This document shows, in pieces, positions 19,301 to 52,653 of a DNA stretch of 64,000 nucleotides (positions are counted from its first letter, which is position 1; every line of letters begins with the position of its first letter). Origin of the DNA: a virus; IMG/VR virus record IMGVR_UViG_3300032308_002246, positions 109,963 to 173,962 of that record; one strand, 5' to 3'. Both the position numbers and the translations under genes were made by a program. Under the pieces are notes generated by a model. The model had not been told where the DNA came from, ran no database searches, and worked only from the letters and a program-made list of their open reading frames with translations.

Positions 19301-19952
19301 CCAGGGTGTAGGTACAACACCAGTTTCTGACCACGGTTCAATGACTGGTCTTGCTGATGATGACCACACTCAGTATTTAACCGATGCGCGTCATGATGCT
19401 CTTGACCACACAACGGCAATAGGTTCTGCTTCGCTTGACGACATCGGCAATGTCTCGGCTTCAGCTGCTGCTTCTGGAGACTTTTTAAAGTACGACGGAG
19501 CCAATTGGGTTAATGACCCAATCAACCTTGGCACCGACACTGTCGGCAACTATATGGTCAACGTGTCTGCAAGCACCGGACTCTCAATCTCTCACACTCA
19601 GGGTGAAGGTTCGACTGCGACAATTTCAACAACTGGTGTTCAGACGCTTGGCGCAAAGGCCGGCAACTACACGCTTGCTGCTGGTGATGCTGCAGAAACA
19701 ATCATTATTATGGACTCAAGCTCCGCCAACGACTTGACTGTCCCAAGCGCTTCAGCTGTTGCGTTCGGTACTGGCACAAGCATCACCGTTGTTCAGCGAG
19801 GTACTGGCAAGACAAGAATCCTTGCAGGAGCAGGAGTAACGCTCTTGGCAACTCCTGGTCTTTTCCTAAGGGCAAGATACTCTTCATGCACAATAGTCAA
19901 AACAGAAAATGCAAACGAGTGGTTTGTTATAGGTGACTTGGCGGCATCGTGA
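16353..19952 (+). CDS. Long tail fibre protein 1, modular
   Basis: 1199 residues. The N-terminus (MAAYTRKQYSGAARNTTTTT) leads into a beta domain probably used for attachment. Then come at least three copies of a module with LGTDTTGNYMSDLTQGTGV and HTPGEGSNATIAIGQ. A domain containing IEVERGTSDNVSMRWNES follows, then a unique globular region (about 690-960). Next are the fibre motif SMTGLADDDHTQYLTDARH and a tip domain ending TGKTRILAGAGVTLLATPG. This order of phase-variable modules is typical of trimeric receptor-binding fibres. GGAG precedes the ATG. Confidence 0.85.
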   Translation: MAAYTRKQYSGAARNTTTTTLLTNVGTTVDITATTGWPSIAGIPFYVVISPSSIYEEKCLATISGSTLTLDRAKDDTTASEHPIGSVIYPVFTANDADEANELVSKLTTTGDLLTTDGTNLLRLGVGEDGYFLKASSSASAGIEWASIPTINNLNDIGDVTINDVEESDFLVYKASASAWINETIHFITVSDTEPTDEIRQGDLWYNSSELELYTYYSNNWVQVTLTPEFLKVEELDNVYIDNANAGDVLTFDGLDWYNDNVVSLLGPDISAETVTASVFTGNLTGNSDTATALETPRTISLSGDVSGSVSFDGSQDVSISATVQINSITLGTDTTGNYVNDVVAGTGISVTHTPGEGSSATVAINATLDNLSDVTVPSPTSGDFLKWNGTAWVNDPINLGTDTAGNYMSDLTQGTGVTITHTPGEGSNATIAIGQAVATSSSVQFAAVTAPLVGNASTASALQTARAISLTGDVSGSVSFDGSANASITATIQPNSVALGTDTTGNYMSDLTQGTGVTITHTPGEGSNATIAIGQAVATSSSVSFARLETTGDVLVGGNLTVNGTTTTLNTETLLVEDNIVVLNSGITGSPTLNSGIEVERGTSDNVSMRWNESTDRWEFTNDGSAYNNVLLKSDISLNDISDTVITSAANGQLLEFDGTNWVNAVRPSSEPMGHENKADSVISFNEGTRTFSIAPASTSFTVWCAGKRFVKTTTETVQIPDTSGLYYIYYNSSGVLSYRTTYFVWDTDAPTAYVYWNEVDNKAYFFADERHGVTLDWATHEYLHRTRGAAIANGFGANNYILDGNGSLDSHAKLDIANGTFFDEDLQVDIAHSATPTANTWEQVLQGNAEIPVFYRLNNHWVKDSATEFPMKQGTDRPRYNLNTAGTWSTPDVANNHFGVSWIIATNNLNEPVIAILGQGSYTNNGSAQAEFYASLDLDGFPIVEFRPLYKIIYECKTSYTNTPSARITDVIDLRSVISSDQGVGTTPVSDHGSMTGLADDDHTQYLTDARHDALDHTTAIGSASLDDIGNVSASAAASGDFLKYDGANWVNDPINLGTDTVGNYMVNVSASTGLSISHTQGEGSTATISTTGVQTLGAKAGNYTLAAGDAAETIIIMDSSSANDLTVPSASAVAFGTGTSITVVQRGTGKTRILAGAGVTLLATPGLFLRARYSSCTIVKTENANEWFVIGDLAAS

Positions 19953-20911
19953 TTCCGGGCAATCAAGCCAGTGGTGGAAAGTTTATTGACCCACCAGATT
20001 CAATATCTGTAGTTCCAAACGCTCTAGGCGGTGCCAGCGACATAGTTATCAATCACACTGGTTATAAAGGGAAATCTGGGTCAGTTAAATTCAGGGTCAC
20101 TTCAAACACTGGGGTCAGTTCTGTTTCTGAAGCCACAAGTGGAACGTCTAGGTCCATGTCTCTGACTGGATTAAACAATGGCGTTAGCTACACGTTTTCA
20201 GCAGTCACAATTGAGTCTCAGTCTTCTGTCGAATCTTTATCTGCTGTAACTTCATCTTCATCACTTGTTGCAGGAGTTCCAACTGCCCCAGCTCAACCAA
20301 CTGTTTCTGCTGGTAATGGTCAAGTAACTGTATCGTGGAGCGAACCAGCAAATAACGGTGCAGCTATTACTAGTTATATTGTTTACTGGTCAACATCATC
20401 TGCTGCTATTCAAAGTTGGTCAAACTCGGTAAACACTGGTTCGACATCCACGTCTTATACCGTTACTGGATTAAGCAATGGAACCGCATACTATTTTACA
20501 GTTATTGCAGTCAACGCTACTGGTCAGAGTGCAAGGTCAGCTGTTTCAAGTGGAGCAACACCAGTGGTCCCAGGGCCACCACCTCCTCCGCCATGCTCTT
20601 GTGACGGTGTAGCCAGAAGACAGTACGGTTCATTTGCTCATCTCGACCCAGCCGGTTTTGGTTGGACATGTGACGGAACAACGAGCTACGAGTACTACAC
20701 ATATGGAACATGTGTTGGATGCCCTGGTGAAGGTGGTTACAACGGAGCATTAAGAAACGGTGTTTGTGGTTATGTCGCGCCTGCTCCTCCGCCTCCTTCT
20801 CCTCCGCCCCCTTCTCCTCCACCTCCATCGCCGCCACCCGCTCCTCCTCCTTGCTCAATATGCTGCTCTGGATGCTTTATAGACCCAAAGCTTGGACCAA
20901 TTTGTTGTTAG
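19949..20911 (+). CDS. Fibronectin-III adhesin with proline-rich and cysteine-rich C-terminus
   Basis: 320 residues starting at GTG 19949, which overlaps the previous TGA. Residues about 15-110 and 110-205 are two fibronectin type III-like domains (the second with SWSEPANNGAAITSYIVYW). A run of Pro (about 208-214) leads to a Cys-rich domain, then a second proline block around residues 277-301 made of Ser-Pro(3-4) units. It ends in a compact Cys cluster (CSICCSGC..ICC). Ser-Pro4 units are the hydroxylation/glycosylation motif of plant extensins. A prolyl-hydroxylase-like gene lies about 0.8 kb downstream. A surface-exposed virion decoration or adhesin is inferred. Confidence 0.75.
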   Translation: MIPGNQASGGKFIDPPDSISVVPNALGGASDIVINHTGYKGKSGSVKFRVTSNTGVSSVSEATSGTSRSMSLTGLNNGVSYTFSAVTIESQSSVESLSAVTSSSSLVAGVPTAPAQPTVSAGNGQVTVSWSEPANNGAAITSYIVYWSTSSAAIQSWSNSVNTGSTSTSYTVTGLSNGTAYYFTVIAVNATGQSARSAVSSGATPVVPGPPPPPPCSCDGVARRQYGSFAHLDPAGFGWTCDGTTSYEYYTYGTCVGCPGEGGYNGALRNGVCGYVAPAPPPPSPPPPSPPPPSPPPAPPPCSICCSGCFIDPKLGPICC

Positions 20912-21734: not shown

Positions 21735-22322
21735 ATGAAGTACATCAACGTAAATGGCGTATGTGTTTACAGGAATGCAATTATCAATCCCTCTGAGATA
21801 ATAGAAGCCTCTGAGCTGTTAAGCATCTCGAAAGACAGCCGAGGCGATTGGACCAAATCGACAGTAATTGACACCGAGGGGAAGGTCTTTGTTTCTGAAG
21901 TAAGGACAAACCAGTTGATGTTCACCCCAACGCCAACTCAAAGGGGGGACGAGTCGTCGGCAGAGGTTATGCTGGCGAATAAAATTCACGAATATGTGAT
22001 TCCTTGTGTCCAAAACTTTGCGGCGAAATTTGGTCTTTCAATCAAGTTCCAATCTACAAACGGATATCAAATTCTCAAGTATTCAGTTAACGAACATTAC
22101 GTATCCCACCTTGATGATGGTGAAAAAACCAGACGGTACGCTTCTGCCGTTGCATACCTAAACGACGACTACGAAGGTGGCGAACTATATTTTCAGGATT
22201 TGAATTTCACATATCAGCCGGTAGCCGGGGATGTTGTAATTTTCCCATCTGGAGCACCATTTAGGCATGAGGCAAAACCCGTAATCAGCGGCATAAAGTA
22301 CTCAATAGCTAACTGGTGGTAA
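21735..22322 (+). CDS. 2OG/Fe(II) oxygenase 1, prolyl-4-hydroxylase-like
   Basis: 195 residues with the double-stranded beta-helix pattern. The iron ligands are His125-x-Asp127 (in VSHLDDGE) and His178 (FRHEAKPV), with Lys188 ten residues after the distal His. The core strand AYLNDDYEGGELYF is the P4H signature. Collagen prolyl-4-hydroxylase also uses Lys at His+10 to bind 2-oxoglutarate. The reaction would be Fe(II)/2OG-dependent hydroxylation with release of succinate and CO2. It is placed between fibre genes, just after the SPPPP adhesin, GNAT and zinc ribbon. The substrate is inferred only. Confidence 0.88.
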   Translation: MKYINVNGVCVYRNAIINPSEIIEASELLSISKDSRGDWTKSTVIDTEGKVFVSEVRTNQLMFTPTPTQRGDESSAEVMLANKIHEYVIPCVQNFAAKFGLSIKFQSTNGYQILKYSVNEHYVSHLDDGEKTRRYASAVAYLNDDYEGGELYFQDLNFTYQPVAGDVVIFPSGAPFRHEAKPVISGIKYSIANWW

Positions 22323-26710: not shown

Positions 26711-27016
26711 ATGGCTAATTCAGCTAAAGCACTATTTAGAGGCGCCGCTACGACAAATACAAGCACGACTCTTTACACCGTGCCATCCTCGACTACAACG
26801 ATAGTGACGAACATAATTGTCACAAATACGGCTGCAACGGATGGAACTTTTACGCTGTCGCTAGACGATGTTGCACTTGCATCTGCCGTAGTGGTTCCAG
26901 CAAAGGGTATTTTCACCCTTGACATCAAACAGGTTTTAGCTACAACAGAAACAATTAAGGGTGGCGCTAATGCCACCTCTATCAGCTTCCACATCAGTGG
27001 AATGGAGATTGCATAA
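26711..27016 (+). CDS. Small virion protein, beta-sandwich
   Basis: 101 residues, rich in Thr/Val/Ala with alternating hydrophobic strands: TTIVTNIIVTNTAATDGTFT, then LDIKQVLATTETIKGGANAT. It resembles small decoration-like beta proteins encoded among cyanophage-type fibre genes. GGAG precedes the ATG. Its TAA overlaps the next ATG by one base, indicating co-translation. Confidence 0.65.
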   Translation: MANSAKALFRGAATTNTSTTLYTVPSSTTTIVTNIIVTNTAATDGTFTLSLDDVALASAVVVPAKGIFTLDIKQVLATTETIKGGANATSISFHISGMEIA

Positions 27017-29772
27017 TGGCAGCAAACCAAATCCCTGCAGGTCTGACACCAATAACACCTGAAGAGGTGTTGATTGACCCAGTCCAAAAGCTACGCATCT
27101 CTCAGCCTCAGGCGCTGATTGACACCGACTTTGAATATGGTACCCAGATTTCAAAGTGGGAAAACCATATAAATGTTGGAGCTCGACCATTCGTTTTTGA
27201 CACAGCTTCGCCAATTTCGGGCATAACCGCAATTACAATGAGCACTTCTTCAAGAACTGTAACCGTGTCACTTCCAAGCACTGCAGGCATTGCTGTTGGA
27301 ACTCCAATTTCGGTAAGAGACACATACCTTGCTATTGCAAACGGCAACTACTTGGTTGAGTCTGTTACATCAAACACTTCGTTTACATACACAGGCAAAG
27401 CCGTGAACACTGGCTCAGTTACATCAATTCTTGATGCAAACAAGACGTTAATTTTTACTGGTTCACTTTATTCTGGTGCTCAAATCGGTGGAGCTCCAAC
27501 TGTTTCATACTCTGGAAACGCAGTTACCGTAACAACAACAATCCCCCACGGTTTGTCTCTTGGTAATGAAGTAGCCATCACGGGTATAACAACTTCGGGA
27601 ACAAACCCTCCAAACGGTTCAAACTTCGTTGCAAGAATTATCAGCGCAACTCAATTTGTTGTTTATGTTCCGGCAACACCAACAGGAACACTGACGGCAA
27701 CTTCTGCTGCTGTATATGTCGTTCCGTCTGGTCAGTTTTTGCACAGACCATTTGACGGCGGTGTTATCTTCACGAATAACGGCACTTCAAACTATGAATC
27801 AGCAATTCGTCAAACTCGTCGTTACTTCCGTTACCAGTCAGGTAAGGGTATCCAGATGTCATCTGGAACTCTGTTGAAGCCAGCTCTACAGGTTGACTCA
27901 TTGACTTATTCAGCCGGAACCGGTCTCGTAACTGTACAGACAAAAGAAAAGCACAACCTCTATCCAGGTTCCGTAATCGTTACTTTTGGCGCGACAGAAG
28001 CTGGGTACAACGGTACTTTCTCTGTTTACACAATCACTGGTTATAACACCTTTACATACACCCCTCAATCAACGCCATCAGCAGCAACCGCTTCTGGGCC
28101 ATACTACATAACCGTTACTGGATGGTATGGTAATGAAAACCGACTCGGATTGTTTGATGACCAAAACGGAGTGTTCTTTGAGTTTGACGGTCAGACACTT
28201 TACGCAGTTAAGCGCTCATCAACTTTCCAAATTTCTGGCAAAGTAACGGCCACACTTGGTTCTTGCACCATTACTCAAACAAATGCTGCATTCCCGACAA
28301 GATTTTCAAAACAACTTGTCATCGGAGACAGAATTGTTCTCCGTGGAGCGTCTTACAGAATTACAGACATAGCAAGCGACACCTCAATGACGATTAGTCC
28401 TGCGTATCGTGGAGCAACAACCGACTACGTAATCTGCTCAAGAACCGTAGACGAAAGATACGCACAATCAGAGTGGAACCTTGACAAGCTTGATGGAACC
28501 GGAGCATCTGGTTATAACGTCGACCTTTCCAAGATGCAAATGTTCTATATTGACTACTCTTGGTATGGAGCTGGCGCTATCCGCTGGGGTATGCGTGCAA
28601 CAAATGGCAAGGTAACTTACTGCCACAAGATTGCCAACAACAACACCAACTCTGAAGCGTACATGCGTTCGGGAAACCTTCCAGCAAGATACGAGACGGT
28701 TTCGAATCCTCCGTTTACATACATGGCAGCATCGCTTGCAAATAATGGTGTAACCATGACAGTAAACAGCACAGCTGGGTTTCCTAACTCTGGGACTCTT
28801 GCGTGTTTCAACCAGACACATGGTTACGAATACATCAACTACACAGGCAAAACAGCAACCACGTTCACTGGTTTGACAAGACAGCAAACAGGAAACGCTT
28901 CACTAGCTTTAACAATTGCAGCTGGGTCAAATGATGGAACCGTAGCTTCGACTTCTGGTCTCCAGGTTGGACAAAGAGTTAGCGCAACCGCTGTTCCAGA
29001 CGGAACATTTATCCAGGAAATCAATGGATTGAATGTCAAGTTGAGTGCTGCGGTGACCGGTGCTAACCCAACGGTGAACGTAATCCCAATGGGAACAAAC
29101 GCTGCAATCGCTTGGACCTACTCAGCAACAAACCCAATCGGTGTTGAACTTGCTTTCCCAACATATGCTCCATCCATTTCTCACTGGGGTACTTCAGCAA
29201 TCATGGACGGCCGTTACGACGATGATAAGTCGCTCGTGTTCACATACGGTTCGGCTTCGGCTGTTACTGTAGCTGCTGGCGCAACGAACGCTCTTCTTGC
29301 AATCAGAGTTGCTCCTTCAGCGGATAACGGTACTTCTGCAGCATTTGGCGAAAGAGAACTTATCAACAGAATGCAGTTGGTTCTACGAGCATTGGACGTA
29401 ACAACAACAACGGCTTCGGCAAACTTGTTGATTACTGCTGTGCTAAACGGTGTTCCTTCGGGAGCTAGAACATGGGCCAAGCCATACACTGTTACTTCGT
29501 CACTTGCTCAAGTAGCAGACTATGGTGGTACAACAACAACTGTTTCTGGTGGTGAAGTGACTGGTGGTTTCTTTGTAGGCACTGGTGCAAACTCTATTGA
29601 CCTTGCAGCAGTTAGAGACCTTGGTAACTCAATTCTTGGAGGCGGTGGAACGACGACGACGGCTGGCATCTATCCAGACGGTCCAGACGTCATTCACGTT
29701 CTCGTGCGTAACCTCGGTGCCGCATCGGTAACCGTGTTCGCTCGTCTCTCATGGACTGAAGCACAGGCTTAA
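27016..29772 (+). CDS. Large virion structural protein (YESAIRQTRRYFRYQSGKG family)
   Basis: 918 residues. A conserved block around 255-285 reads RPFDGGVIFTNNG then YESAIRQTRRYFRYQSGKG, well known in virion proteins of marine cyanophages and related environmental phages. Around it lie immunoglobulin-like repeats with VTVxTxxxHxL and YNGTFxVxxI patterns (also present in fibre 2). The protein probably sits at the baseplate periphery or along the fibres. No enzymatic motif was seen. Confidence 0.75.
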   Translation: MAANQIPAGLTPITPEEVLIDPVQKLRISQPQALIDTDFEYGTQISKWENHINVGARPFVFDTASPISGITAITMSTSSRTVTVSLPSTAGIAVGTPISVRDTYLAIANGNYLVESVTSNTSFTYTGKAVNTGSVTSILDANKTLIFTGSLYSGAQIGGAPTVSYSGNAVTVTTTIPHGLSLGNEVAITGITTSGTNPPNGSNFVARIISATQFVVYVPATPTGTLTATSAAVYVVPSGQFLHRPFDGGVIFTNNGTSNYESAIRQTRRYFRYQSGKGIQMSSGTLLKPALQVDSLTYSAGTGLVTVQTKEKHNLYPGSVIVTFGATEAGYNGTFSVYTITGYNTFTYTPQSTPSAATASGPYYITVTGWYGNENRLGLFDDQNGVFFEFDGQTLYAVKRSSTFQISGKVTATLGSCTITQTNAAFPTRFSKQLVIGDRIVLRGASYRITDIASDTSMTISPAYRGATTDYVICSRTVDERYAQSEWNLDKLDGTGASGYNVDLSKMQMFYIDYSWYGAGAIRWGMRATNGKVTYCHKIANNNTNSEAYMRSGNLPARYETVSNPPFTYMAASLANNGVTMTVNSTAGFPNSGTLACFNQTHGYEYINYTGKTATTFTGLTRQQTGNASLALTIAAGSNDGTVASTSGLQVGQRVSATAVPDGTFIQEINGLNVKLSAAVTGANPTVNVIPMGTNAAIAWTYSATNPIGVELAFPTYAPSISHWGTSAIMDGRYDDDKSLVFTYGSASAVTVAAGATNALLAIRVAPSADNGTSAAFGERELINRMQLVLRALDVTTTTASANLLITAVLNGVPSGARTWAKPYTVTSSLAQVADYGGTTTTVSGGEVTGGFFVGTGANSIDLAAVRDLGNSILGGGGTTTTAGIYPDGPDVIHVLVRNLGAASVTVFARLSWTEAQA

Positions 29773-29774
29773 TC

Positions 29775-30554
29775 ATGGCAGCGATTGACTTCCCAGCAGA
29801 TGCTCAATCCGGCGACCAGCACGTAAGCGCTGGCAAGACCTGGACATATAACGGTTCTGGTTGGGTGCTAGTAACTATCCCGACAGCAATGTTTACAGCA
29901 GACTCGGTAAGCGGCTCGTCTCTTGTTGATGGAACCGTTGGGTTGCAAAAAATATTTAACGAAGGAGCAGGTCAGATAATCGTTTTTAACGGTTCTGGAG
30001 TTGCAACTGCAGTTGACTCAACTGGCGATGTGGTGATAAACGCTTCCGGTGTTTCTGCTATTTCTGCAGGAGCAATTGTTAATGCTGACGTAAATGCTTC
30101 TGCGGCAATCGATAAAACAAAGATTGCTGGAACAGCGGTTGTTCTTACGGACTCGTCTGTAGTCACCTCGACAATGATTGCTGACTCAACAATCGTTGAT
30201 GGCGACATCAGTGCTACAGCAAATATTGCTCAGGGAAAAATCGCAGATATCTTGACAAACGCGCAAGCCGCAAGCTACACACTTGTACTCGCCGACAAGA
30301 ATAAGATTGTCGAAATGGGTGTTGGTTCCGCAAACGACTTGACCGTCCCCCCAAACTCATCAGTGGCCTTTCCAATCGGCAGCCAAATTCAGGTTCTCCA
30401 GACAGGGACTGGTAAGACAAGAATTTTGGCAGGCGCTGGTGTCACCGTGAACGCAACTCCAGGAGTGTTCATGAGGGCGCAGTGGTCAGCTGTTACGCTA
30501 CTAAAGAGAGCATCAGATACTTGGGTGGCAACGGGAGACCTTTCGGCTTCATAA
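29775..30554 (+). CDS. Short tail fibre protein
   Basis: 259 residues: a short N-terminal cap (FPADAQSGDQHVSAGKTWTY), a middle made of alternating phrases such as VNADVNASAAIDKTKI and VDGDISATANIAQGKI, and a tip domain with NDLTVPPNSSVAFPIGSQI and TGKTRILAGAGVTVNATPG. The same tip closes fibre 1 and appears twice in the minus-strand fibre at 46914-48107, a clear sign of domain exchange. Trimeric receptor-binding function is likely. Confidence 0.78.
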   Translation: MAAIDFPADAQSGDQHVSAGKTWTYNGSGWVLVTIPTAMFTADSVSGSSLVDGTVGLQKIFNEGAGQIIVFNGSGVATAVDSTGDVVINASGVSAISAGAIVNADVNASAAIDKTKIAGTAVVLTDSSVVTSTMIADSTIVDGDISATANIAQGKIADILTNAQAASYTLVLADKNKIVEMGVGSANDLTVPPNSSVAFPIGSQIQVLQTGTGKTRILAGAGVTVNATPGVFMRAQWSAVTLLKRASDTWVATGDLSAS

Positions 30555-30557
30555 CTT

Positions 30558-31592
30558 ATGGCAGTTTCAAGCAACAACCAAATCGATTCTGGAGGTAAAG
30601 CCCCTTCAGCGCCAACGATTGGTACCCCACTGCTTGCAACAGGAACTTCAGCAAGCGTAGTTTTCACCCCATCGACATATATTGGTAAAGGCACAGTAAC
30701 CTACAGAGCCGCTGCAGACTCCGGTCAAACTGCTACTGGTAATAGCAGCCCAATTGTTATCACTGGGTTGACGCAGGGTTCAACAAGAACATTTACTGTT
30801 ACGGCTGTTTCGTCAAACGGAGTTGAAACATCTTCCGAAGTAAGTGCCTCGCTGGTTATGGGAGTTGGTCCATCTGCACCAACAATCGGAACAGCAGTCA
30901 TAGTTCAGAACGTGGACAGAGCAATTGATGTTCCGTACACCGCAGGAGCAACTGGGACAAACCCAACAGTAACCTATACGGCAACATCAAGTCCTAGTGG
31001 ATTAACCGCTACCGGTGCAAGCCCAATACGCATAACTGGACTCACGGCAGGAACCGCATACACATTTACGGTTTCAGCTTCTACGGAATTTGGAACTGCA
31101 ACTTCCGCCGCTTCCAACTCGGTGACAGCTGGAAATAGACCTGGTGCTCCGACTATTGGTACCGCTACTGGCGGAAACGCTCAAGCGACTGTCACATACA
31201 CCGCAGGAGCTGCTGGGACGGGCGCTACGACATTTACGGCCATTTCATCTCCAGGGAACGTTCAGGCCTCTGGAGCGTCTCCTATCACCGTTACAGGCCT
31301 CACCAACGGCCAAGCATACACTTTCACTGTAAGAGCAACCAACTCCTATGGATTTCAGACCTCTGGGTCTTCAAACTCCGTAACACCAGTTGCCCCTCCG
31401 TACTTCCCACCGTTCTTTCCGCCGTTTTTCCCACCTTACTTTCCGCCGTTTTTCCCACCATTTTTCCCTCCGTATTTCCCACCATTCTTTCCTCCTTTCT
31501 TTCCTCCTTATTTCCCACCCTTCTTCCCGCCTTTCTTTCCACCATTCTTTCCGCCATTCTTCCCGCCGTACTTCCCTCCGAGGTTCAAGTAG
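30558..31592 (+). CDS. Triple fibronectin-III adhesin ending in a PPYF/PPFF repeat tail
   Basis: 344 residues. Three fibronectin type III-like domains lie at about 15-100, 105-190 and 195-278, each ending in an xITGLTxGxxxTFTVxA strand. From residue 280 the protein is only sixteen Pro-Pro-aromatic-Phe tetrapeptides (PPYF or PPFF), closing with PPRFK. No phage family with this tail is known to me. The tail would form a stiff polyproline-like rod with an aromatic face. Directly downstream starts the peroxidase/oxygenase cluster, so the prolines are plausible substrates of the P4H-like enzymes; this is inference. Confidence 0.75.
   Translation: MAVSSNNQIDSGGKAPSAPTIGTPLLATGTSASVVFTPSTYIGKGTVTYRAAADSGQTATGNSSPIVITGLTQGSTRTFTVTAVSSNGVETSSEVSASLVMGVGPSAPTIGTAVIVQNVDRAIDVPYTAGATGTNPTVTYTATSSPSGLTATGASPIRITGLTAGTAYTFTVSASTEFGTATSAASNSVTAGNRPGAPTIGTATGGNAQATVTYTAGAAGTGATTFTAISSPGNVQASGASPITVTGLTNGQAYTFTVRATNSYGFQTSGSSNSVTPVAPPYFPPFFPPFFPPYFPPFFPPFFPPYFPPFFPPFFPPYFPPFFPPFFPPFFPPFFPPYFPPRFK
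31395..31586 (+). repeat. Sixteen-unit 12-bp coding repeat (PP-Y/F-F)
   Basis: Sixteen tandem 12-base units encode PP[Y/F]F (the last is PPRF). Tyr units occur at positions 1, 4, 7, 10 and 15, giving a 36-base higher-order period (PPYF-PPFF-PPFF) over the first ten units. Codons vary (CCT, CCG, CCA; TTC, TTT), so the array is not a fresh slippage product. Confidence 0.9.
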
Positions 31593-33088: not shown

Positions 33089-33706
33089 ATGGAATCACCA
33101 TGGAAAATACAGCCTGGATTTTTTGGAACTGGTCCTGAAAACATTCATGTAATTAAGGATTTCATTGATAAAAAAGATGTTGAAACCATATCCTCATTTG
33201 CAAAAACCATAAATGAGTGGTCAAACGGCTCAGACGAAGACATCTTTGATGAAAACGGTGTATGCACTTATAGCGCTGCATACTGGAATGACAGGCAGTG
33301 TACTTGGGAAATTCTGCAAAGAATAAATAAAGATGTCTATGATTTGATTGATTTCTATTTAGACAAAATGGCTGTTACTGCAGGCGAAATTTTTGGATGC
33401 AAACTACAGAAACGACCCCCCTGCATTGTTAGATGGTTCAAGGGTATTGAACAACGTCCTCATGCTGACAAGCAAATGAACGATGGGTCCCCAAATCCTT
33501 TCCCCACATACGATATAAACTCGCTTTTCTACTGGAATAATGACTTTGAAGGTGGCGAGCTTTATTACCCACAGCACGATGTTGTCGTGAAGCCAGAGCC
33601 TGGGCTAGCCGTAATCCACCCCGGAGACATAAACTATCTACACGGTGTCAAGCTCGTTACGAGCGGGGAGCGATACACCTCTCCGGCATTCTTTACAGTG
33701 GAGTGA
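33089..33706 (+). CDS. 2OG/Fe(II) oxygenase 2
   Basis: 205 residues. Predicted ligands are His125-x-Asp127 (RPHADKQ) and His185 (YLHGVKLV), with Arg195 at His+10 for 2-oxoglutarate. The strand WNNDFEGGELYYP is the P4H-type core. An N-terminal helical cap covers about residues 15-100. It opens the run of oxygenase genes and is followed two bases later by another. The substrate is unknown. Confidence 0.87.
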   Translation: MESPWKIQPGFFGTGPENIHVIKDFIDKKDVETISSFAKTINEWSNGSDEDIFDENGVCTYSAAYWNDRQCTWEILQRINKDVYDLIDFYLDKMAVTAGEIFGCKLQKRPPCIVRWFKGIEQRPHADKQMNDGSPNPFPTYDINSLFYWNNDFEGGELYYPQHDVVVKPEPGLAVIHPGDINYLHGVKLVTSGERYTSPAFFTVE

Positions 33707-33707
33707 C

Positions 33708-34370
33708 ATGGGACAAGAACCGCGTTTTATAAATACTCCAAGAATTGGATTGTTTGTTGATTACTTGCCAAAAGAAGAATGGGAAGTAGTAAAAGAATAC
33801 TGCGAAAACAATGAGGCAAAATTTGAGTTCGTTGGGCACAATCCTGAAATTGGATGGAAAAAGAAAACACACTCACGTCACCCAGAGATAACTTTTCAAA
33901 CATCTTTTCTCCCAACCAAAGAGGAAATTGACTCCGGTGGTTACATGACCAATGGCGATAACTACAAGATTTCCATGCATGAACCAGCAGACGAGCAGGT
34001 TAAAAAAATATTGCTATGGATGTTGATAAATGTTAGAGACACAATAAAAACAACCTACGGCAATAAAACATACTTTGAAAGCGGCCCATGGTTGTCAATG
34101 GCCAAAGAAGGCGACAACATGGGGTTGCACTGCGATGGCGTGTTTCTGGACAAAGTTGGAGCTGTTACTGATTTTTCATGCGTTTACTATGTGAACGACG
34201 AATATGAAGGCGGAGAAATTTACATGCCAATTCTTGGCGTAGCTATTAAACCTAAAGCCAATTCTCTTCTAATTTGGTCTCACACTTGGCATGAAGACAT
34301 GGCTCACGGAGTTAGGCCAATCATTTCTGGAACTCGTTATATGTCGCAAGGGTTCTTTACCACTGTATAG
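33708..34370 (+). CDS. 2OG/Fe(II) oxygenase 3
   Basis: 220 residues. ATG 33708 with GGAG just upstream is preferred; earlier in-frame starts lie inside the preceding gene. The ligands are His141-x-Asp143 (GLHCDGV) and His200 (MAHGVRPI), with Arg210 for 2OG. The core strand is VNDEYEGGEIYMP. The N-terminal 130 residues differ from those of its neighbours, suggesting another substrate. It is part of a co-directional set with spacing of 1-10 bases. Confidence 0.87.
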   Translation: MGQEPRFINTPRIGLFVDYLPKEEWEVVKEYCENNEAKFEFVGHNPEIGWKKKTHSRHPEITFQTSFLPTKEEIDSGGYMTNGDNYKISMHEPADEQVKKILLWMLINVRDTIKTTYGNKTYFESGPWLSMAKEGDNMGLHCDGVFLDKVGAVTDFSCVYYVNDEYEGGEIYMPILGVAIKPKANSLLIWSHTWHEDMAHGVRPIISGTRYMSQGFFTTV

Positions 34371-34379
34371 ACTGTTGGC

Positions 34380-35045
34380 ATGAAAACAGAAATACTTAGT
34401 GACCCGCGCCTTGGGGTTCTTGTATACAAGAATGCACTGCCTAAAGAACTGGACATCATAAATAGGCTTGAGTCAACTATCGGAGACAGCACGACGATGC
34501 CTTTCATGTGGTGCGAGGCTCTTGTTGGTTATTCACAAAAGATGCCAGAGTATCGAGACTGTGTTGACTGCAAAATTGGACAGGTCCACATGGACCATCT
34601 GCACCATTACCCACAGTTCGCAGAGCTAAAGAACATTTACAACGACACGGCGAATGCAATCCGCGCATGCATGAATGATTATCAAAGCCGCTACAACATA
34701 AATATGGAGTATATGGAGGCAATTAACTTCGTTCGATACGGAGCGAATCAGCACTTCCAGGTCCACACTGACCACGGGTTTTCTTATACTTGCACAGTTT
34801 CTTCTGTCGTCTACTTCAATGACGACTATGAAGGCGGTGAGCTCTGGTTCCCTTACCTAGATTTGACATTCAAACCAGAAACTGGGGACATAGTGATGTT
34901 CCCGTCAACATTTATTTATGCACATGCTGCAAAACCAGTTACCAGCGGCGTTAAGTACTCTGGAGTAACGATGTTTGATTACAACGACAGGAATCACGAC
35001 ATCAAGGGAAGCTACGACGGAGTAAAGGCTCCAGCTGCTCAGTAG
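34380..35045 (+). CDS. 2OG/Fe(II) oxygenase 4, Lys-type
   Basis: 221 residues. The ligands are His129-x-Asp131 (QVHTDHG) and His182 (YAHAAKPV). The 2OG anchor is Lys192, as in collagen prolyl-4-hydroxylase and in oxygenase 1, not Arg as in most neighbours. The core is FNDDYEGGELWFP. Residues 45-77 contain a Cys/His-rich stretch (CVDCKIGQVHMDHLHH) that could bind a second metal. TAG overlaps the next GTG by one base. Confidence 0.87.
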   Translation: MKTEILSDPRLGVLVYKNALPKELDIINRLESTIGDSTTMPFMWCEALVGYSQKMPEYRDCVDCKIGQVHMDHLHHYPQFAELKNIYNDTANAIRACMNDYQSRYNINMEYMEAINFVRYGANQHFQVHTDHGFSYTCTVSSVVYFNDDYEGGELWFPYLDLTFKPETGDIVMFPSTFIYAHAAKPVTSGVKYSGVTMFDYNDRNHDIKGSYDGVKAPAAQ

Positions 35046-36284: not shown

Positions 36285-36286
36285 CA

Positions 36287-36904
36287 ATGTCAATGCTTGA
36301 CTATAAAAATCTACTGCTTAAAAACATACATGTTATTGATAATTTTGCAACTGGTGAAGAATTATCAAAAATTCTTGATAGGTGTTATGAATTCTCAGAA
36401 TGGGACAACACCTGGCAGGAGTATGTAGGCGGTCAGGGATATACCGAAAGACCAGATTGCCAAGAAAGAAAAGACGTATCTTCTAGGGCATTGTCTTTGG
36501 TTTCCGCAACAGTCGGCAGGAGATTGTGTTTTCTTTATGAACCATACCTAAGAAAATACCCACCTGGCTCTTATCTAAAAATGCATGCGGATGCAGAGGG
36601 TTATTATGGAAGCAATCCAGAACCACTGAAAAACTACGACCCCACAAACCAAATGTCAGAAGTTCTAAATGAATGTTCATCAATTCTTTACCTGAATGAA
36701 GACTACGAAGGTGGAGAATTGTACTTTGAAGAATTTGACATGTTGATTAAACCCAAAGCCAATCAGCTGGTTTTCTTTCCAAGTGGCTCCGAATTTAGAC
36801 ATGAAGTGAAGCCGGTAATTAGTGGTGATAGATACACACTTGCGTCTTTTTATACGACTGATAAGCTGGTTGGCCTTCACGAGAAAATACGAGAACTTAT
36901 ATGA
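36287..36904 (+). CDS. 2OG/Fe(II) oxygenase 5, prolyl-4-hydroxylase-like
   Basis: 205 residues. The ligands are His100-x-Asp102 (LKMHADAEG) and His172 (FRHEVKPV), with Arg182 at His+10. The core is LNEDYEGGELYF. Around the distal His it is close to oxygenase 1 (RHEVKPVISG against RHEAKPVISG) but with Arg replacing Lys. The end (LVGLHEKIRELI) overlaps the next ATG (ATGA). Confidence 0.88.
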   Translation: MSMLDYKNLLLKNIHVIDNFATGEELSKILDRCYEFSEWDNTWQEYVGGQGYTERPDCQERKDVSSRALSLVSATVGRRLCFLYEPYLRKYPPGSYLKMHADAEGYYGSNPEPLKNYDPTNQMSEVLNECSSILYLNEDYEGGELYFEEFDMLIKPKANQLVFFPSGSEFRHEVKPVISGDRYTLASFYTTDKLVGLHEKIRELI

Positions 36905-37565: not shown

Positions 37566-38286
37566 AAGATACGAACCAGAGGTTTCTTTTGACTTCAGTT
37601 CACTGCAGTTTGACTGGGAACAATATGCAGACCAGTGCAACCGCGAGGATGGTGGGCATTCTGTTGCTATAGCTGAATATCTTTTTAACAAGGTTGGCAT
37701 TGATAGGAGAAACATTGCCACAGGTGGAGCAAGCGACTACGAGTTTGTAGTTCACTACCCAAGACCAAACCTGTCAAGTGCTTATGGTCAAGCTCAATGG
37801 ATGTCCATCCTCATGATTCTCGGCATCATGGATATATCCAAAAAGAAAAATGTATTGGCAGTTTCTGGTGGTTTAGATAGATTTAGGCTGAAGGTGTTCA
37901 AGTCGCTACACGGCGCAAACATCACATTTCTGAATAACAAAAAACTTAGTTTGTACGAAAAATTCCAAGACCCTATTGACGACTACAACGTTGTAACTAT
38001 GCAGGATTTTGAGAAACACCCAAACAACAAGTACGACATGATGCTTTCGTGGTCTCAGGACATGGAGAATCCACTGATTCCAATAAGTTCTTTTGTAGAC
38101 AGACTTGAAGACAATGGAATTCTGATAATTCAAAACACATCTGACAGCATGTTTTTATACAACAATCACACCAAAGCAACACCAATTTGGGGATATCACG
38201 AAGCTCTTAAAAATATTGGCGGCTGCAGTGTCTACCATATTCCAGTTTTTTACGGAATCACAATCGTTGTAAAGAGCGCAACATGA
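37552..38286 (+). CDS. Putative class I methyltransferase-like protein
   Basis: 244 residues. ATG 37552 follows GAGGTG. KKKNVLAVSGGLDRFRLKVF resembles the strand-loop-helix of a Rossmann-like nucleotide-binding core, although the usual GxGxG is reduced to SGG. Later strands (KYDMMLSWSQDMENP, DNGILIIQNTS, HIPVFYGITIVVK) follow the order of SAM-dependent methyltransferases. This is a fold guess. It lies inside the oxygenase cluster and overlaps oxygenase 6 by ATGA. Confidence 0.5.
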   Translation: MEQSKRYEPEVSFDFSSLQFDWEQYADQCNREDGGHSVAIAEYLFNKVGIDRRNIATGGASDYEFVVHYPRPNLSSAYGQAQWMSILMILGIMDISKKKNVLAVSGGLDRFRLKVFKSLHGANITFLNNKKLSLYEKFQDPIDDYNVVTMQDFEKHPNNKYDMMLSWSQDMENPLIPISSFVDRLEDNGILIIQNTSDSMFLYNNHTKATPIWGYHEALKNIGGCSVYHIPVFYGITIVVKSAT

Positions 38287-38957
38287 TTATAAAAGATAAT
38301 GCACTAGCTGATTCTTTATATCAAGAACTGCTATCAGATGATGCTTTTTTCCCTGAGTCAATGGGTTCTGACGAGAGATTAGCAACAGAGCTCAATTCAT
38401 ATCACTACGAAAAATCTAGTTGTTTTGCTCCCTATATGTTTTGGGATGGATGGTGGGCAACCCCAGCAAACACATTGAGGAAGAAAGTTGTTCAAGCAAT
38501 TTGGGAAGACAACCTCCCATGCGATACAAGCGAAATACTTGGAATCGAGTATTGGACAAGAACTTATCTACCTGGCCAGTATCTGGATGTGCATGTTGAT
38601 GAGGATACATTTCTTTATCAGGAATCAAAAACATTTAGCGGTCCGTTGACAGGCTCAATACTCTACGGAGTAGATAATGACAATGGTGGTTTTGTAGAAA
38701 TATACAACAAAGCAGTTTTGAAAGATGGAGAAAAATTAGCTATTGAAGCAGAAAGCATAAACTCTTTGTTGGTTCCGGTAGAAGAGCGAGAGAGAATAGC
38801 CTACAAAGGGAACCGTGTAATTATTTTTGATACCGGCCATGTGGTTCATGGAACAACTCCAGCAAAGAGTGGAATCAGGCAAGTAATGGTAACAAATGTA
38901 TGGCATCGCAACAATCCCCCAACAGCTCTAAAGTTGGGAGAATTTTTTTATGAGTGA
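38283..38957 (+). CDS. 2OG/Fe(II) oxygenase 6
   Basis: 224 residues. The ligands are His104-x-Asp106 (LDVHVDEDT) and His189 (HVVHGTTPA), with Arg199 at His+10. The usual EGGE strand is replaced by DNDNGGFVEIY, and there is an insertion of about 30 residues before the distal His, so it belongs to a different branch from its neighbours. It overlaps the genes on both sides (ATGA and 8 bases). Confidence 0.82.
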   Translation: MIIKDNALADSLYQELLSDDAFFPESMGSDERLATELNSYHYEKSSCFAPYMFWDGWWATPANTLRKKVVQAIWEDNLPCDTSEILGIEYWTRTYLPGQYLDVHVDEDTFLYQESKTFSGPLTGSILYGVDNDNGGFVEIYNKAVLKDGEKLAIEAESINSLLVPVEERERIAYKGNRVIIFDTGHVVHGTTPAKSGIRQVMVTNVWHRNNPPTALKLGEFFYE

Positions 38958-39852
38958 TGTTAAAAAGGTAAACCTTTTATCAATTGACATATTTAAAACA
39001 AAAATTAATGACATTGACAACCAGCGGCTGTTGCAAGAGATTTTAAAATCAACCAATGATATTGATGATTCATTTATTGAAAATAAATATCATACTTATT
39101 ATGAAGACAAAAGGTATCCGTTTGGTTCTGCTGAGTCGGAAAAACTAATAAACAAGTTGGCAGAAGCAGTTTCTGGTTCTTTAAACAAAGAAATGGTGCT
39201 TAGTAGCATTTGGACACTAACTCTTGGTTATGGACAGTCGGTATCTGCTCACTCGCATAAATCAAACACTCACCTTCGTCCAGAAGAGTACTTTTCAATT
39301 GCCTATTACCCAAGCGCCCCCAAGGGAAGCGCAGACTTGATATTTATGGTTAATGCCGGAAACACTATAGAAAAGTCTGTTGAACTAACACCGGAAACTG
39401 GTGACCTAATTATTTTCAACTCTTATTTAATGCATATGACCAATAGGCACGGCAATAAAGAAGAACCTCGAGTCGTTATAAGCGCAAATTTTTCTCCGAA
39501 ATACCCGAATTCAACACCAACTCAGGATTGGAGCGCTTACGCAAGACACCCAGAGGACAGTGAAATTATCTACGATAAACGTTACTCATTAACGATACGT
39601 ACTCCCTTTGGCAAGGAAGATGCAACACTTGGAATCAAAGGTGATATTGCGGAAATATTTAATCCAACCGGAAAATACTTTATAGAAAAATTTATTGAAA
39701 CAGAAGATTCATTCAGTTCTGAATTTTCTGTTGATGTGCCAATGGTTACCACTGTTAGTATTCAGTTGTCGTTTACTGAAAACAGGGCCATTGAGGGCTC
39801 TATTTTTATTGGTGAATTTGCTAAATACCATGTGAGTGGGGTGGTGTTGTGA
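38950..39852 (+). CDS. 2OG/Fe(II) oxygenase 7 (2OG-FeII_Oxy_5-like)
   Basis: 300 residues. SVSAHSHKSNTHLRPEEYFS provides His101/His103, and ETGDLIIFNSYLMHMTN with PRVVISANF gives the distal His162 and Arg174. This order (His motif, short strand, G-D-L-I-I-F-x-S, His, Arg-x-x-I-S) is the hallmark of the putative 2OG oxygenase family common in T4-like and marine phages. About 110 residues follow as a beta-rich C-terminal domain. The proximal Asp is not clear, so activity is less certain than for the others. Confidence 0.7.
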   Translation: MSDVKKVNLLSIDIFKTKINDIDNQRLLQEILKSTNDIDDSFIENKYHTYYEDKRYPFGSAESEKLINKLAEAVSGSLNKEMVLSSIWTLTLGYGQSVSAHSHKSNTHLRPEEYFSIAYYPSAPKGSADLIFMVNAGNTIEKSVELTPETGDLIIFNSYLMHMTNRHGNKEEPRVVISANFSPKYPNSTPTQDWSAYARHPEDSEIIYDKRYSLTIRTPFGKEDATLGIKGDIAEIFNPTGKYFIEKFIETEDSFSSEFSVDVPMVTTVSIQLSFTENRAIEGSIFIGEFAKYHVSGVVL

Positions 39853-40460
39853 GCGAGTCTATTTACAACATCCCAATAAATTCAATTGACGGAGATAAAG
39901 ATATGCTATCAGGCCTCAATGGAATGGTTACATTGTTCTTCCCTTTTGCTTCAAAAGCTGGGTATGAGCCAAAATGCAGCCGTGTTTGGTCTTATGCTAG
40001 AACTTCCAGAAAGCTCTGGGAGATGCAAAAGCTGCACGAAATGTTTGAAAACTTCTCTGTTGTTGGGGTACCAACAAATCAGTTTTGGAACATGGAGCCT
40101 TTGGAAAATGAACAGATATCAAAATTTATAAAAGAAACATACCCATTCGTCAAGTTTCCAATTACTGAAAAAGTGGTTATAAACGGAGATGACGAGCATG
40201 CAATCTGTTCGCATATGAAGGGTTATACCAAGCGACTTGTTGACGACACAAAAGCTGGTAACAGCTTTGCTGCATCACAGGGTCAAAATCTTGCTGGTGG
40301 AGCTGTACACAAAATACCCGCTTATTACGAAAAGTTTGTAGTCAGCAAAGAAGGTCGACAGGTCTACAGATTTGGGTTTGCTACTAAACCCTTGGCAGAC
40401 AGGGTTGAAACCACTGACATGGATATGACTGTAATTCAGGCAGTACAATCATTACTATGA
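39849..40460 (+). CDS. Glutathione-peroxidase-like protein 3, catalytic Cys missing
   Basis: 203 residues starting at GTG. The GPx framework is clear: PFASKAGYEPK aligns with the active-site ASKCG block, VVGVPTNQF with the NQF block, and FVKFPITEKVVINGD with the FPxxxKxxVNG strand. FEKFVVSKEGRQVYRF closes the fold. The peroxidatic Cys is replaced by Ala37; Cys43 lies six residues later. It is probably inactive as a classical peroxidase and may bind a partner or use another Cys. Confidence 0.75.
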   Translation: MSESIYNIPINSIDGDKDMLSGLNGMVTLFFPFASKAGYEPKCSRVWSYARTSRKLWEMQKLHEMFENFSVVGVPTNQFWNMEPLENEQISKFIKETYPFVKFPITEKVVINGDDEHAICSHMKGYTKRLVDDTKAGNSFAASQGQNLAGGAVHKIPAYYEKFVVSKEGRQVYRFGFATKPLADRVETTDMDMTVIQAVQSLL

Positions 40461-41317
40461 GCGATTTCAACTTCAAACCAGAGCATCTTGGTGGCGGAAC
40501 AGTAATTTTTAAGGATGCAATTAATGTTCCACAAAAAGAGGCATTTGAACATCTTGACCGGATGAAAGATGAAGCATTCAGTAACTCATACACAATCGTT
40601 AAGAATGAAGAAGGTAATCCACTCCACGCAATAAACAAAGGCGGGTTCATATATGACCTTGAAGATATGGATAGAGCTCCAATACGAATTGGCAACTTGG
40701 ATATTCCATTCTTTCAAGAATGTGAAAAAGCAATTTACGGTGCCCTACTTCGCTACATCGAGATGTTTCCAGCTGTACTGCAGTGCCTTTGGTGGAAGAG
40801 CCCTGGCCATGTTTTGCGTTATGCCAAGAGCGGTGGACTTGGTTTTCATGCAGACAATGATGTCAACTATAGATATGGGAGAGAACCCAAAGAGCAACAC
40901 GCAACCAGAAATGTGTTATCAGCTCTCGTGTATCTAAACGACTGCACCGATGATGAATCTATTGAGTACTCATTTTCCGGAGGTCACATGACGATTCCAT
41001 ACTTTGATATTGACCTAGCTCCATCAACTGGGGCAATAGTTCTTATGCCTGCAAACTATATTGGCGCTCATCAAATCCACGAAGTAACTAGGGGTGTTAG
41101 ATATTCATACTTGACATGGTTTGCTCAAGGCTCCGAAGACCCAGAACGCGGGTGTTCTCCGGCTCACCCAGAAGAGACCATGTTCCAGAACAACGGGCAA
41201 TGGTGGCTTCCATCAATTCTCAAGGATTACGAAAACTACATAATTGAAAAGTACGGTTCTTTGTTAAATGCCCCACAGGAAAAAGTAGATTACCTGAGCA
41301 GGGCCAACGACCACTAA
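40457..41317 (+). CDS. 2OG/Fe(II) oxygenase 8 (LGGG subfamily)
   Basis: 286 residues. It is the first of four related long oxygenases that begin with a HLGGGxxxF or similar strand. The ligands are His131-x-Asp133 (GFHADND) and His205 (GAHQIHEV), with Arg215 at His+10. An insertion YRYGREPKEQHATRN after the first His motif and a C-terminal extension of about 60 residues distinguish the subfamily. Its stop overlaps the stop of a minus-strand gene by four bases. Confidence 0.86.
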   Translation: MSDFNFKPEHLGGGTVIFKDAINVPQKEAFEHLDRMKDEAFSNSYTIVKNEEGNPLHAINKGGFIYDLEDMDRAPIRIGNLDIPFFQECEKAIYGALLRYIEMFPAVLQCLWWKSPGHVLRYAKSGGLGFHADNDVNYRYGREPKEQHATRNVLSALVYLNDCTDDESIEYSFSGGHMTIPYFDIDLAPSTGAIVLMPANYIGAHQIHEVTRGVRYSYLTWFAQGSEDPERGCSPAHPEETMFQNNGQWWLPSILKDYENYIIEKYGSLLNAPQEKVDYLSRANDH

Positions 41318-41637
41318 ATCTTTTTTGTAAACATCTTTTCAGTTACAAATAAATGCTTTGCAAGAGTACTTGATGAGTGAATTATCCCAAGTGGATTTGG
41401 AACATTAAATTCGTTGAGGATGTCTGCCATCTTCCCGTTTGCAATGTCATCCCAAAAAGCCATCATTGCTTCCGCTCCAGTGCGGCCAGCTATGTAGTAT
41501 TTTTCTTCAATTTGACCCGGGAGAACATTGTCTGCCCAGTGGTTGTAACCATCTTTTTCTACCATGTTTGGCAGCTTGGCAAACTCCTGGACCATAATTT
41601 CTGTCCACCGATTGAATGCGTCGTTCTTTTCGCTCAT
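41314..41637 (-). CDS. Hypothetical protein on the minus strand within the oxygenase cluster
   Basis: 107 residues with ATG at 41637, just 18 bases from the divergent ATG at 41656. The sequence is helical (FNRWTEIMVQEFAKLPNM, GAEAMMAFWDDIANGKMADI) with no recognised family. A longer upstream frame would run into the oxygenase and is rejected. It is the only minus-strand gene between 20.9 and 43.2 kb, so it may be an insertion into the cluster or separately regulated. Confidence 0.68.
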   Translation of the reverse strand: MSEKNDAFNRWTEIMVQEFAKLPNMVEKDGYNHWADNVLPGQIEEKYYIAGRTGAEAMMAFWDDIANGKMADILNEFNVPNPLGIIHSSSTLAKHLFVTEKMFTKKI

Positions 41638-41655
41638 TCGGCTATCATACACCGT

Positions 41656-42528
41656 ATGAATCAAGAGCATAAGTTCAACGATGTAGAGCCACATCACCTC
41701 GGTGGTGGGGTTGTCGTTTTCCGTGGAGCTATTTCATTTGATAACAAATGGGCAAGCTCCTTTGCTGAGAAGCAGGTATCCAAAGAACGTTCTCAGATGT
41801 ACGACGAGGCGGTAGACCCAGAGACGGGGGAGCCCGCATTTATAAACAGGAGCGGGTATTACTTTGATGCTGAGGGAATGAACCAGATGCCTCGACGTGG
41901 TTCACAAATACACATGGATGCGGATGAAGAAGTTAGAGGTTTCTTGGATTTTATTGAGAAATCAAAAGACTCATATCTCCTGAAGTACTTTTACCTTTTC
42001 CCTCTGGCATACAAAAATGTTTGGTGGAAAGTAAAGGGGCATCTTGTCTCGTACTCCGTTGAAAACGGCGGAAAGTTTTTGGGCCCACACTCCGACACGA
42101 GTGCTGACTATGCTTACGGTTTCCCCCATCCGCACGACCAGCTAGCTACTAGAAACACAATCTCATGCATTGTTTATCTAAATGATGATTTTGAGGGCGG
42201 ACATCACTACTTCAATTATCTTGAAATTGACTATAAGCCTTCTGCTGGTGACATTTTGATGTTTCCATCAAACTACATGGCAGCTCATGAAGTAAAGGAA
42301 ACAACGGGTGGAAGTCGATACACATATCTTGGTTGGTATTCGCACGGCACGCCAAATAAAGAGGTCAATGAGCATATAGTTGACCCAGTTGAGTTTCCAG
42401 AAATGGCAAAAACTGCAACCAATGTTTATATGCCAACGCTTCGTTATGATTTTGCCGAATACCTTAACAAAGTTGACCCAGGCAAAACATCATTTGGGCA
42501 CAGTCTGGTAGAAAGTATGCACTCATGA
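41656..42528 (+). CDS. 2OG/Fe(II) oxygenase 9 (LGGG subfamily)
   Basis: 290 residues. ATG 41656 is chosen because the sequence from there (MNQEHKFNDVEPHHLGGGVV) aligns with oxygenase 8; the longer frame reads through the minus-strand gene. The ligands are His145-x-Asp147 (GPHSDTS) and His211 (AAHEVKET), with Arg221. The core is LNDDFEGGHHYF. The insertion YGFPHPHDQLATRN matches that of oxygenase 8. It overlaps oxygenase 10 by ATGA. Confidence 0.87.
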   Translation: MNQEHKFNDVEPHHLGGGVVVFRGAISFDNKWASSFAEKQVSKERSQMYDEAVDPETGEPAFINRSGYYFDAEGMNQMPRRGSQIHMDADEEVRGFLDFIEKSKDSYLLKYFYLFPLAYKNVWWKVKGHLVSYSVENGGKFLGPHSDTSADYAYGFPHPHDQLATRNTISCIVYLNDDFEGGHHYFNYLEIDYKPSAGDILMFPSNYMAAHEVKETTGGSRYTYLGWYSHGTPNKEVNEHIVDPVEFPEMAKTATNVYMPTLRYDFAEYLNKVDPGKTSFGHSLVESMHS

Positions 42529-43259
42529 TAGTAAAACATCTTGGGAATGGAATAATGCTTTTTGAAGATGTATTAGACACATCCCCCCTTGAGTCGTATC
42601 TTGAAAGAATTTTTGCAGAAAATTCAAGCGCTACAAACGGAGTCAATATTGACTCATCTCAAAATGACGGTGGATACACCGTACAGGAAGCTCATATTTC
42701 AGAATTACCAATTAGGTTTCACGGACTCTCCGGTAGTTCTGAATTTACAAAAGACGTCACAAAATCAATTGATGATGCGTTGTACAAGTGCTTAGTTGAG
42801 TACTGTCGAGTTTTCCCTTTAGCAATTGACTGTATAAAGTGGAGAACTAGCGGCCAGATTGCATCTTACTCGGTAGGGCAGAACATTGGCCCACATAGCG
42901 ACTGCGCGCTTCCGTATGATGCCGATGGCAATGTTTTAAACTCATTCCCTCTTCACAACACTCTTACTGGCTCAATGGTTTTAAGTGAAAATCACGAGGG
43001 TGGAGCAATAAAATTTAGACCCTGGGGGATAACTTCAAATCCAAAAATTGGCTCAGTTTTGATTTACCCATCATCTTTCATGGGTTGTCATGAAGTTGAG
43101 CAAGTAACTTCTGGTGTTAGAAATGTTTATCTGCAGTGGTTCTGTCAAGGAAAACCAGAGATGCAAATTTTAGAAAATAACAAATTGGACAATCTTGCAA
43201 CCGACGCAAAAAACTGCGGACAAGGCTATGTTCATGTTGGAATTATTCAACAGAATTAA
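42525..43259 (+). CDS. 2OG/Fe(II) oxygenase 10 (LGGG subfamily)
   Basis: 244 residues, beginning MIVKHLGNGIMLFEDVLDTS. The ligands are His124-x-Asp126 (GPHSDCA) and His189 (GCHEVEQV), with Arg199. The core strand is changed to SENHEGGAIKF. The end WFCQG corresponds to WFAQG and FFSQG in its relatives. It converges with oxygenase 11; the two stop codons share the bases TTAA. Confidence 0.86.
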   Translation: MIVKHLGNGIMLFEDVLDTSPLESYLERIFAENSSATNGVNIDSSQNDGGYTVQEAHISELPIRFHGLSGSSEFTKDVTKSIDDALYKCLVEYCRVFPLAIDCIKWRTSGQIASYSVGQNIGPHSDCALPYDADGNVLNSFPLHNTLTGSMVLSENHEGGAIKFRPWGITSNPKIGSVLIYPSSFMGCHEVEQVTSGVRNVYLQWFCQGKPEMQILENNKLDNLATDAKNCGQGYVHVGIIQQN

Positions 43260-44326: not shown

Positions 44327-44328
44327 AG

Positions 44329-52620: not shown

Positions 52621-52653
52621 GCGTTTCTAGCAATTTTACGAAAAGAGTTGACA

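Follow-up and report, generated by a model that had tools for sequence, protein, structure and literature searches.

A tail-region protein encoded in the window, which is a 64-kb stretch of a 174-kb IMG/VR virus record, ends in a tandem array of the four-residue unit PP-aromatic-F, and both here and in many other uncultured phages genes for 2OG-Fe(II) oxygenases (2OG genes) lie downstream of such arrays and almost never upstream. We consider it fairly probable that the array is a proline-rich rod or tip and that it is the substrate of prolyl hydroxylases encoded just downstream of it.

Results

The array gene lies in front of a cluster of 2OG genes

The array gene belongs to a block of virion or tail genes (Table 1), as the initial annotation had proposed; the protein encoded two genes upstream in the same block matches cyanophage virion structural proteins, and served as an independent anchor in the analyses described below. 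Behind the array gene there are two GSHPx-like genes followed by the 2OG genes, eleven of which are found at 33089-44991, with another at 21735. The downstream genes combine a PF13640 (2OG-FeII_Oxy_3) match with the residues HxD...H and a Lys or Arg, those at 33089 and 38283 scoring slightly under the cut-off; the exception is 38950-39852, which matches PF13759. This prolyl-hydroxylase-like cluster is the most informative part of the region, and it was missed by the initial annotation.

Table 1. Features of the window that are relevant to the array and its neighbours.
Feature	Coordinates	Strand	Evidence
Proline-rich tail-type protein, PPPPS linker, Cys-rich end	19949..20911	+	
2OG-Fe(II) oxygenase near the PPPPS protein	21735..22322	+	PF13640 57 bits; PHROG_61 3.5e-28
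Virion structural protein	27016..29772	+	PHROG_5838 898 bits; cyanophage virion structural proteins 41-44% identical
Minor-tail/virion-type protein, directly upstream of array gene	29775..30554	+	PHROG_8780 minor tail protein 8e-25
Array protein: FN3-like domains and C-terminal PP-aromatic-F array	30558..31592	+	344 aa
PP[YF]F/PPRF array	31395..31586	+	16 tetrads: 15 PP[YF]F, last PPRF, then K-stop
2OG-Fe(II) oxygenase, candidate prolyl hydroxylase	33089..33706	+	PF13640 25 bits (cut-off 27); PHROG_61 7.5e-16; HxD...H...K
2OG-Fe(II) oxygenase	33645..34370	+	PF13640; HxD...H...R
2OG-Fe(II) oxygenase, prolyl-hydroxylase fold in model	34380..35045	+	PF13640; PDB; Foldseek
2OG-Fe(II) oxygenase	36287..36904	+	PF13640; best PDB match prolyl 3-hydroxylase 1, 1.2e-7
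2OG-Fe(II) oxygenase-like	38283..38957	+	PF13640 23.7 bits, below cut-off
2OG-Fe(II) oxygenase-like (2OG-FeII_Oxy_5)	38950..39852	+	PF13759; HxD...H motif pattern not found
2OG-Fe(II) oxygenase	40457..41317	+	PF13640
2OG-Fe(II) oxygenase	41377..42528	+	PF13640
2OG-Fe(II) oxygenase	42525..43259	+	PF13640
2OG-Fe(II) oxygenase	43256..44341	-	PF13640
2OG-Fe(II) oxygenase	44329..44991	-	PF13640, weak Tet_JBP

Several other genes of the window were noted. Genes of the glutathione-peroxidase fold (PF00255) are interspersed with the 2OG genes (31596-32174, 32171-33064 and 39849-40460, the first two directly behind the array gene), and a DUF6065 (PF19541) gene is placed inside the cluster (35556-36284). 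A 1375-aa protein (22567-26694) carries an Mtd_N (major tropism determinant N-terminal) domain and a tandem GNVT-type repeat (25108-25205), and a 1414-aa protein (48314-52558) shows weak FN3 matches and is followed by a VanY/PG_binding_1 peptidase (52648-53418) that is probably the endolysin. No psbA, which would suggest a cyanophage host, was found in G000; a Pfam search of G000 for Gp23 gave no match, and its control also matched nowhere.

The array is old and has been conserved as protein

In the C-terminus of ORF 30558-31592 the array follows the residues SVTPVA, with Tyr (PPYF) in units 1, 4, 7, 10 and 15, and PPFF in the others up to the final PPRF. The sixteen PP-aromatic-Phe units described initially are thus off by one, since the sixteenth has Arg in the aromatic position, and the reported occurrence of Tyr every third unit in the first ten is correct. 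In the DNA, TRF scored 12-, 24- and 36-bp arrays at this place, and the repeat goes far past what chance would produce. Codon positions 1 and 2 are identical across all 15 PP[YF]F units, the Y/F switch excepted, and the third positions agree in 31-46% at every lag, i.e. they are saturated; this pattern denotes an old array under long selection at the protein level, and argues against a recent DNA expansion, a mis-assembly or an untranslated tract. In independent contigs the array of the orthologues is the same column for column, with whole-protein identity going down to 61-69%. On these two grounds an assembly artefact and a recent expansion were rejected; an assembly artefact and an untranslated tail are the two outcomes that the initial annotation had named as fatal to its reading. 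Within the clade of the window the array length differs by one whole 3-unit block (L140 versus the window). A general rule of Tyr every third unit, which would mark one face of a PPII helix, was considered and discarded because the lag-3 periodicity is weak among 47 distinct arrays (z 2.6); the period of three is a trait of the clade.

The protein as a whole matches fn3 (PF00041, 1.8e-11, 44.5 bits with a cut-off of 25), no single stretch being significant alone, and Pfam together with AlphaFold2 place the FN3-like part at about residues 16-280, modelled as a beta-sandwich (beta-strands, pLDDT mostly >85); the FN3 assignment made initially is in agreement with these results. The array tail was modelled with a pLDDT of about 50 and no secondary structure, so that of the rigid polyproline rod suggested before, the plausible chemistry is what stands. 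The window array has no Gly, hence no Gly in every third position as in collagen, and no Ser, hence no Ser-Pro(3-5) blocks as in extensins; the protein ends in PPRFK-stop, with no C-terminal Peptidase_S74. In the proteins scanned, no Pfam or PHROG model matched the PP-aromatic array, and no named family was found for it; the earlier remark that the sequence is unlike collagen, extensin or elastin is supported.

PP-aromatic arrays are frequent in uncultured phages

The initial annotation knew of no phage protein with such a tail, but the protein is not singular: when IMG/VR was scanned with a degenerate DNA pattern of three PP-x-F units, at least 120 stretches matched, and PP-aromatic arrays are encoded by at least 120 contigs of uncultured phages. 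Applied to 84,980 genomes of bacteria and archaea, this pattern yielded four stretches, three of them in bacterial MAGs (which may be phage contigs) and one antisense-looking (L131). With four matches in so many genomes, an origin of the array in host genomes was rejected, and the array is essentially confined to phages. It was absent, even in a relaxed version, from five cultured phages examined whole, and searches of the cultured-phage collection with the array proteins (tblastn, blastn) gave no usable match, within the limit that low-complexity masking sets to such searches.

Among the matches listed, the longest translated arrays have 35 units, the sequence ahead of the array defines 19-25 array families, and the residues at position x, counted over 63 distinct pure tetrad arrays, are F (564), Y (263), H (69), W (9) and I (1). 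In some variants one Pro is dropped (FFP mixed with FFPP), and in others the unit has six residues, PPxFF[S/A]. The carrier proteins include FN3, PASTA (over the Pfam cut-off in L101, under it in L013) and putative Ig (L035) domains, as well as proteins with no match. Many tetrad arrays form the very C-terminal end of their protein, frequently with ...FK as the last residues. In a relative of the window protein, which itself lacks this domain, a Peptidase_S74 chaperone domain stands directly after the array (L034:1085-1771, PPAFK|SDVRDK); after autocleavage the array would thus be the mature C-terminus, as in the relatives that end in ...FK. In the hexad loci (among them L064:3043-5565, L053:2128-3858 and L186:6421-8085) several arrays run directly into a Hint/intein-like domain that starts at Cys and in some cases ends in HN; the Pfam matches are weak and stay under the cut-offs (L064, Hint_2, 8e-4; L053, intein-splicing, 2e-3). 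Autoprocessing by such a domain could expose the array end or attach it covalently.

2OG genes are linked to the arrays on the downstream side

PF13640 was found in 75 of 82 whole array-carrying records, often in 5-11 copies, a count that joins two scans with different E-value limits. Such linkage could also arise if the array were an unmodified structural or receptor-contact element, either a PPII rod whose surface is aromatic, as the initial annotation had proposed with a tentative role in binding glycans or membranes, or a motif for trimerisation or packing at the C-terminus, and the 2OG genes were unrelated cargo in the variable region behind the tail genes. This alternative, which we consider unlikely, is consistent with the fact that many unrelated proteins carry the array at their C-terminus or close to it, in some cases ahead of S74 or Hint-like domains, and that 2OG genes are common cargo of aquatic phages; cultured cyanophages carry 5-8 scattered 2OG genes and no array, so these genes also do other things.

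The polarity of the linkage argues against unrelated cargo. In loci of at least 8 kb, 94 arrays share their locus with any 2OG gene, and for 82 of them a 2OG gene lies within 1.5 kb downstream (median distance 140 bp) versus a single case upstream; after dereplication at 80% the figures are 46/65 downstream and 1/57 upstream, whereas other ORFs of those loci, taken as control, gave 36% downstream and 43% upstream. Where there is room on both sides, downstream-only exceeds upstream-only by 33:0 at 80% identity (39 families), and this strict polarity extends across unrelated array families (9:0 at 50% identity, p 0.004; 7:0 at 30%, p 0.016). The array families L007, L035, L057, L059 and L068 have no 2OG gene nearby, and none was found in four array records of 30-39 kb; both facts speak for an unmodified element and against hydroxylation.

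The 918-aa structural protein was used to fetch 80 loci independently of the array. All 39 loci with an array (30 tetrad, 9 hexad) have 2OG genes, with a mean of 4.7, versus 11 of the 41 loci without an array (mean 0.46), the remaining 30 having none; that sister loci with other slot proteins have almost no 2OG genes speaks against unrelated cargo. The Fisher p of 3.8e-13 for these loci has to be discounted because the counts are not independent: the anchor-protein tree shows only some three changes of array state, one of which falls in a truncated contig (L187), and it offers only three independent pairs, two or three of which agree and none of which disagrees. That array state tracks so few clades weighs against the hydroxylation reading and would suit an unmodified element.

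Of the 11 loci that have 2OG genes but no array, seven (L165, L168, L170, L171, L176, L177, L213) hold a glycine-rich G-x-Pro protein in the array slot, with a 2OG gene 13-645 bp downstream; Pfam Collagen matches it above the cut-off in L168 and just below it in L165. The exchange of the array for G-x-Pro repeats while the 2OG gene stays favours hydroxylation over an unmodified element; L209, which is rich in G-x-Pro in a locus with no 2OG gene, is a counterexample. The slot proteins at L165:14076-17168, L168:14082-15980 and L176:14310-15701 are glycine-rich with GNP triplets and long His-rich loops, and we take them to be reminiscent of gp38-like adhesins.

In the reverse direction, 80 loci were fetched with a profile built from 31 enzymes, namely 30 that adjoin an array and that at 34380 of the window; 61 of these loci show a strict array upstream. 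In 58 loci the upstream sequence reaches 3 kb or more, and a PP-aromatic tail is present there in 57 (49 by the strict pattern, 8 as variants recognized by inspection) and lacking only in L252, again not as expected of unrelated cargo; being the query's closest relatives, the fetched loci do not sample phage 2OG genes at random.

The gene pair 19949-20911 and 21735-22322 is probably a second, parallel association of a proline-rich protein with a 2OG gene. Eight slot proteins with PPPS, PTPT or poly-P linkers, including that of the window, have a 2OG gene 481-800 bp downstream, and four proteins of the orthologous slot with PFFPFF, PAPT or PVDPGF linkers have no such gene. In orthologues the PPPPS linker is replaced by PTPT, poly-P, PAPT or PFFPFF. 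Three loci (L201, L209, L214) have Pro-rich genes and no 2OG gene, a result that counts against the hydroxylation reading.

The enzymes resemble prolyl hydroxylases

When the 31-enzyme profile was compared with all PDB sequences, the best matches were Bacillus anthracis prolyl 4-hydroxylase (P4H; 8e-14) and prolyl 3-hydroxylase 1 (3e-12), followed by LH3 (3e-9) and then PiuC and PHD2; 34380-35045 alone has B. anthracis P4H as its best PDB match (6e-6). The Fe triad is intact, with H129, D131 and H182 invariant across the 31 sequences. The model of 34380-35045, the one enzyme for which the fold was compared, has a pLDDT of 89 (AlphaFold2) and is nearest to prolyl hydroxylases, the top Foldseek matches being PHD2, PBCV-1 vCPH, Chlamydomonas P4H with a (Ser-Pro)5 peptide, and bacterial P4Hs. 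Membership in PF13640 does not fix the substrate. That the enzymes modify the array protein at Phe, Tyr, His or Lys, or catalyse another oxidation such as cross-linking, seems to us quite improbable: the lysyl hydroxylase LH3 among the PDB matches, an x position that is always aromatic or His (one Ile excepted) and the many different 2OG paralogues per record, which suggest several reactions, would agree with it, but proline is what the tetrad, hexad, FFP, PPPS/PTPT and G-x-Pro partners have in common, Lys is nearly absent from the array, and prolyl hydroxylases are the top structural matches.

Discussion

The downstream polarity, the anchor loci, the G-x-Pro replacements, the reverse test, and the relatives and Fe triad of the enzymes all point to hydroxylation of the array, presumably at proline. 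In the mechanism that we propose, the phage would express the array protein together with one or more enzymes of prolyl-hydroxylase type, these would hydroxylate prolines of the array, and the resulting hydroxyproline would make the C-terminal rod stiffer, lock it or give it a function, either ahead of assembly or in its course, as P4Hs do for collagen and extensin. A tail-region protein would thus end in a hydroxyproline/aromatic rod that is stiff and more polar; this rod may be PPII-like, may be present in the virion, and may have a role in adsorption or assembly. The PPII helix has three residues per turn; in this geometry, which we do not take as evidence, a four-residue unit turns the aromatics by 120 degrees per unit and a six-residue unit keeps them on one face.

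The broader proposal, that PP-aromatic virion arrays matured by dedicated co-encoded clusters of one to about a dozen prolyl-hydroxylase paralogues constitute a widespread undescribed phage system, has in our judgement about an even chance of being right. If true, phages would make hydroxyproline-containing fibres of a non-collagen type, and some of the 2OG-Fe(II) oxygenases that abound in aquatic phages would be explained; this would bear on the mechanics of phage fibres, on how infection depends on oxygen and on the annotation of many genes filed as metabolic. Phage 2OG oxygenases have been treated as metabolic, 2OG-level or DNA-repair genes (PMC3037559, PMC9602691), and a structural survey reports that phage 2OG proteins resemble a human prolyl hydroxylase and, in the part considered, proposes no substrate (PMC12774648); none of the three, the survey in that part, proposes a structural protein as substrate. 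The one-sided pairing with proline-rich tail repeats provides a concrete substrate hypothesis for these oxygenases. The string PPFFPPFF is absent from the open-licence literature searched, in which nothing was found on the motif or on prolyl hydroxylation of phage fibres either; earlier descriptions may exist.

The array proteins share domain types and gene neighbourhood with phage tail proteins that have FN3, PASTA or S74 ends, and differ from them in the array itself. The 2OG oxygenases of cultured cyanophages and pelagiphages (PHROG_61) belong to the same superfamily and also occur in several copies per genome; in contrast, the array-linked enzymes form clusters behind a single type of gene, and their nearest cultured-phage relatives are about 30% identical. 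Plant and algal extensins and other hydroxyproline-rich glycoproteins combine a proline-dense repeat that includes aromatic residues with P4H-type enzymes. The phage system is similar in its proline-dense repeat with aromatics, and the Chlamydomonas P4H is a structural match; unlike extensins, the array has no Ser-Pro(3-5), and no glycosyltransferase family was found among the neighbouring window genes scanned. The collagen/P4H systems (animal; B. anthracis P4H; PBCV-1 vCPH) likewise pair a proline-rich tandem repeat with PF13640-type hydroxylases, and G-x-Pro repeats take the array slot in related phages, whereas the array has no Gly-X-Y, its unit is PP-aromatic-F, and a single tail-type gene can have as many as about a dozen hydroxylase paralogues next to it. 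If the proposal is true, hydroxyproline maturation of the collagen and extensin kind acts here on a new repeat.
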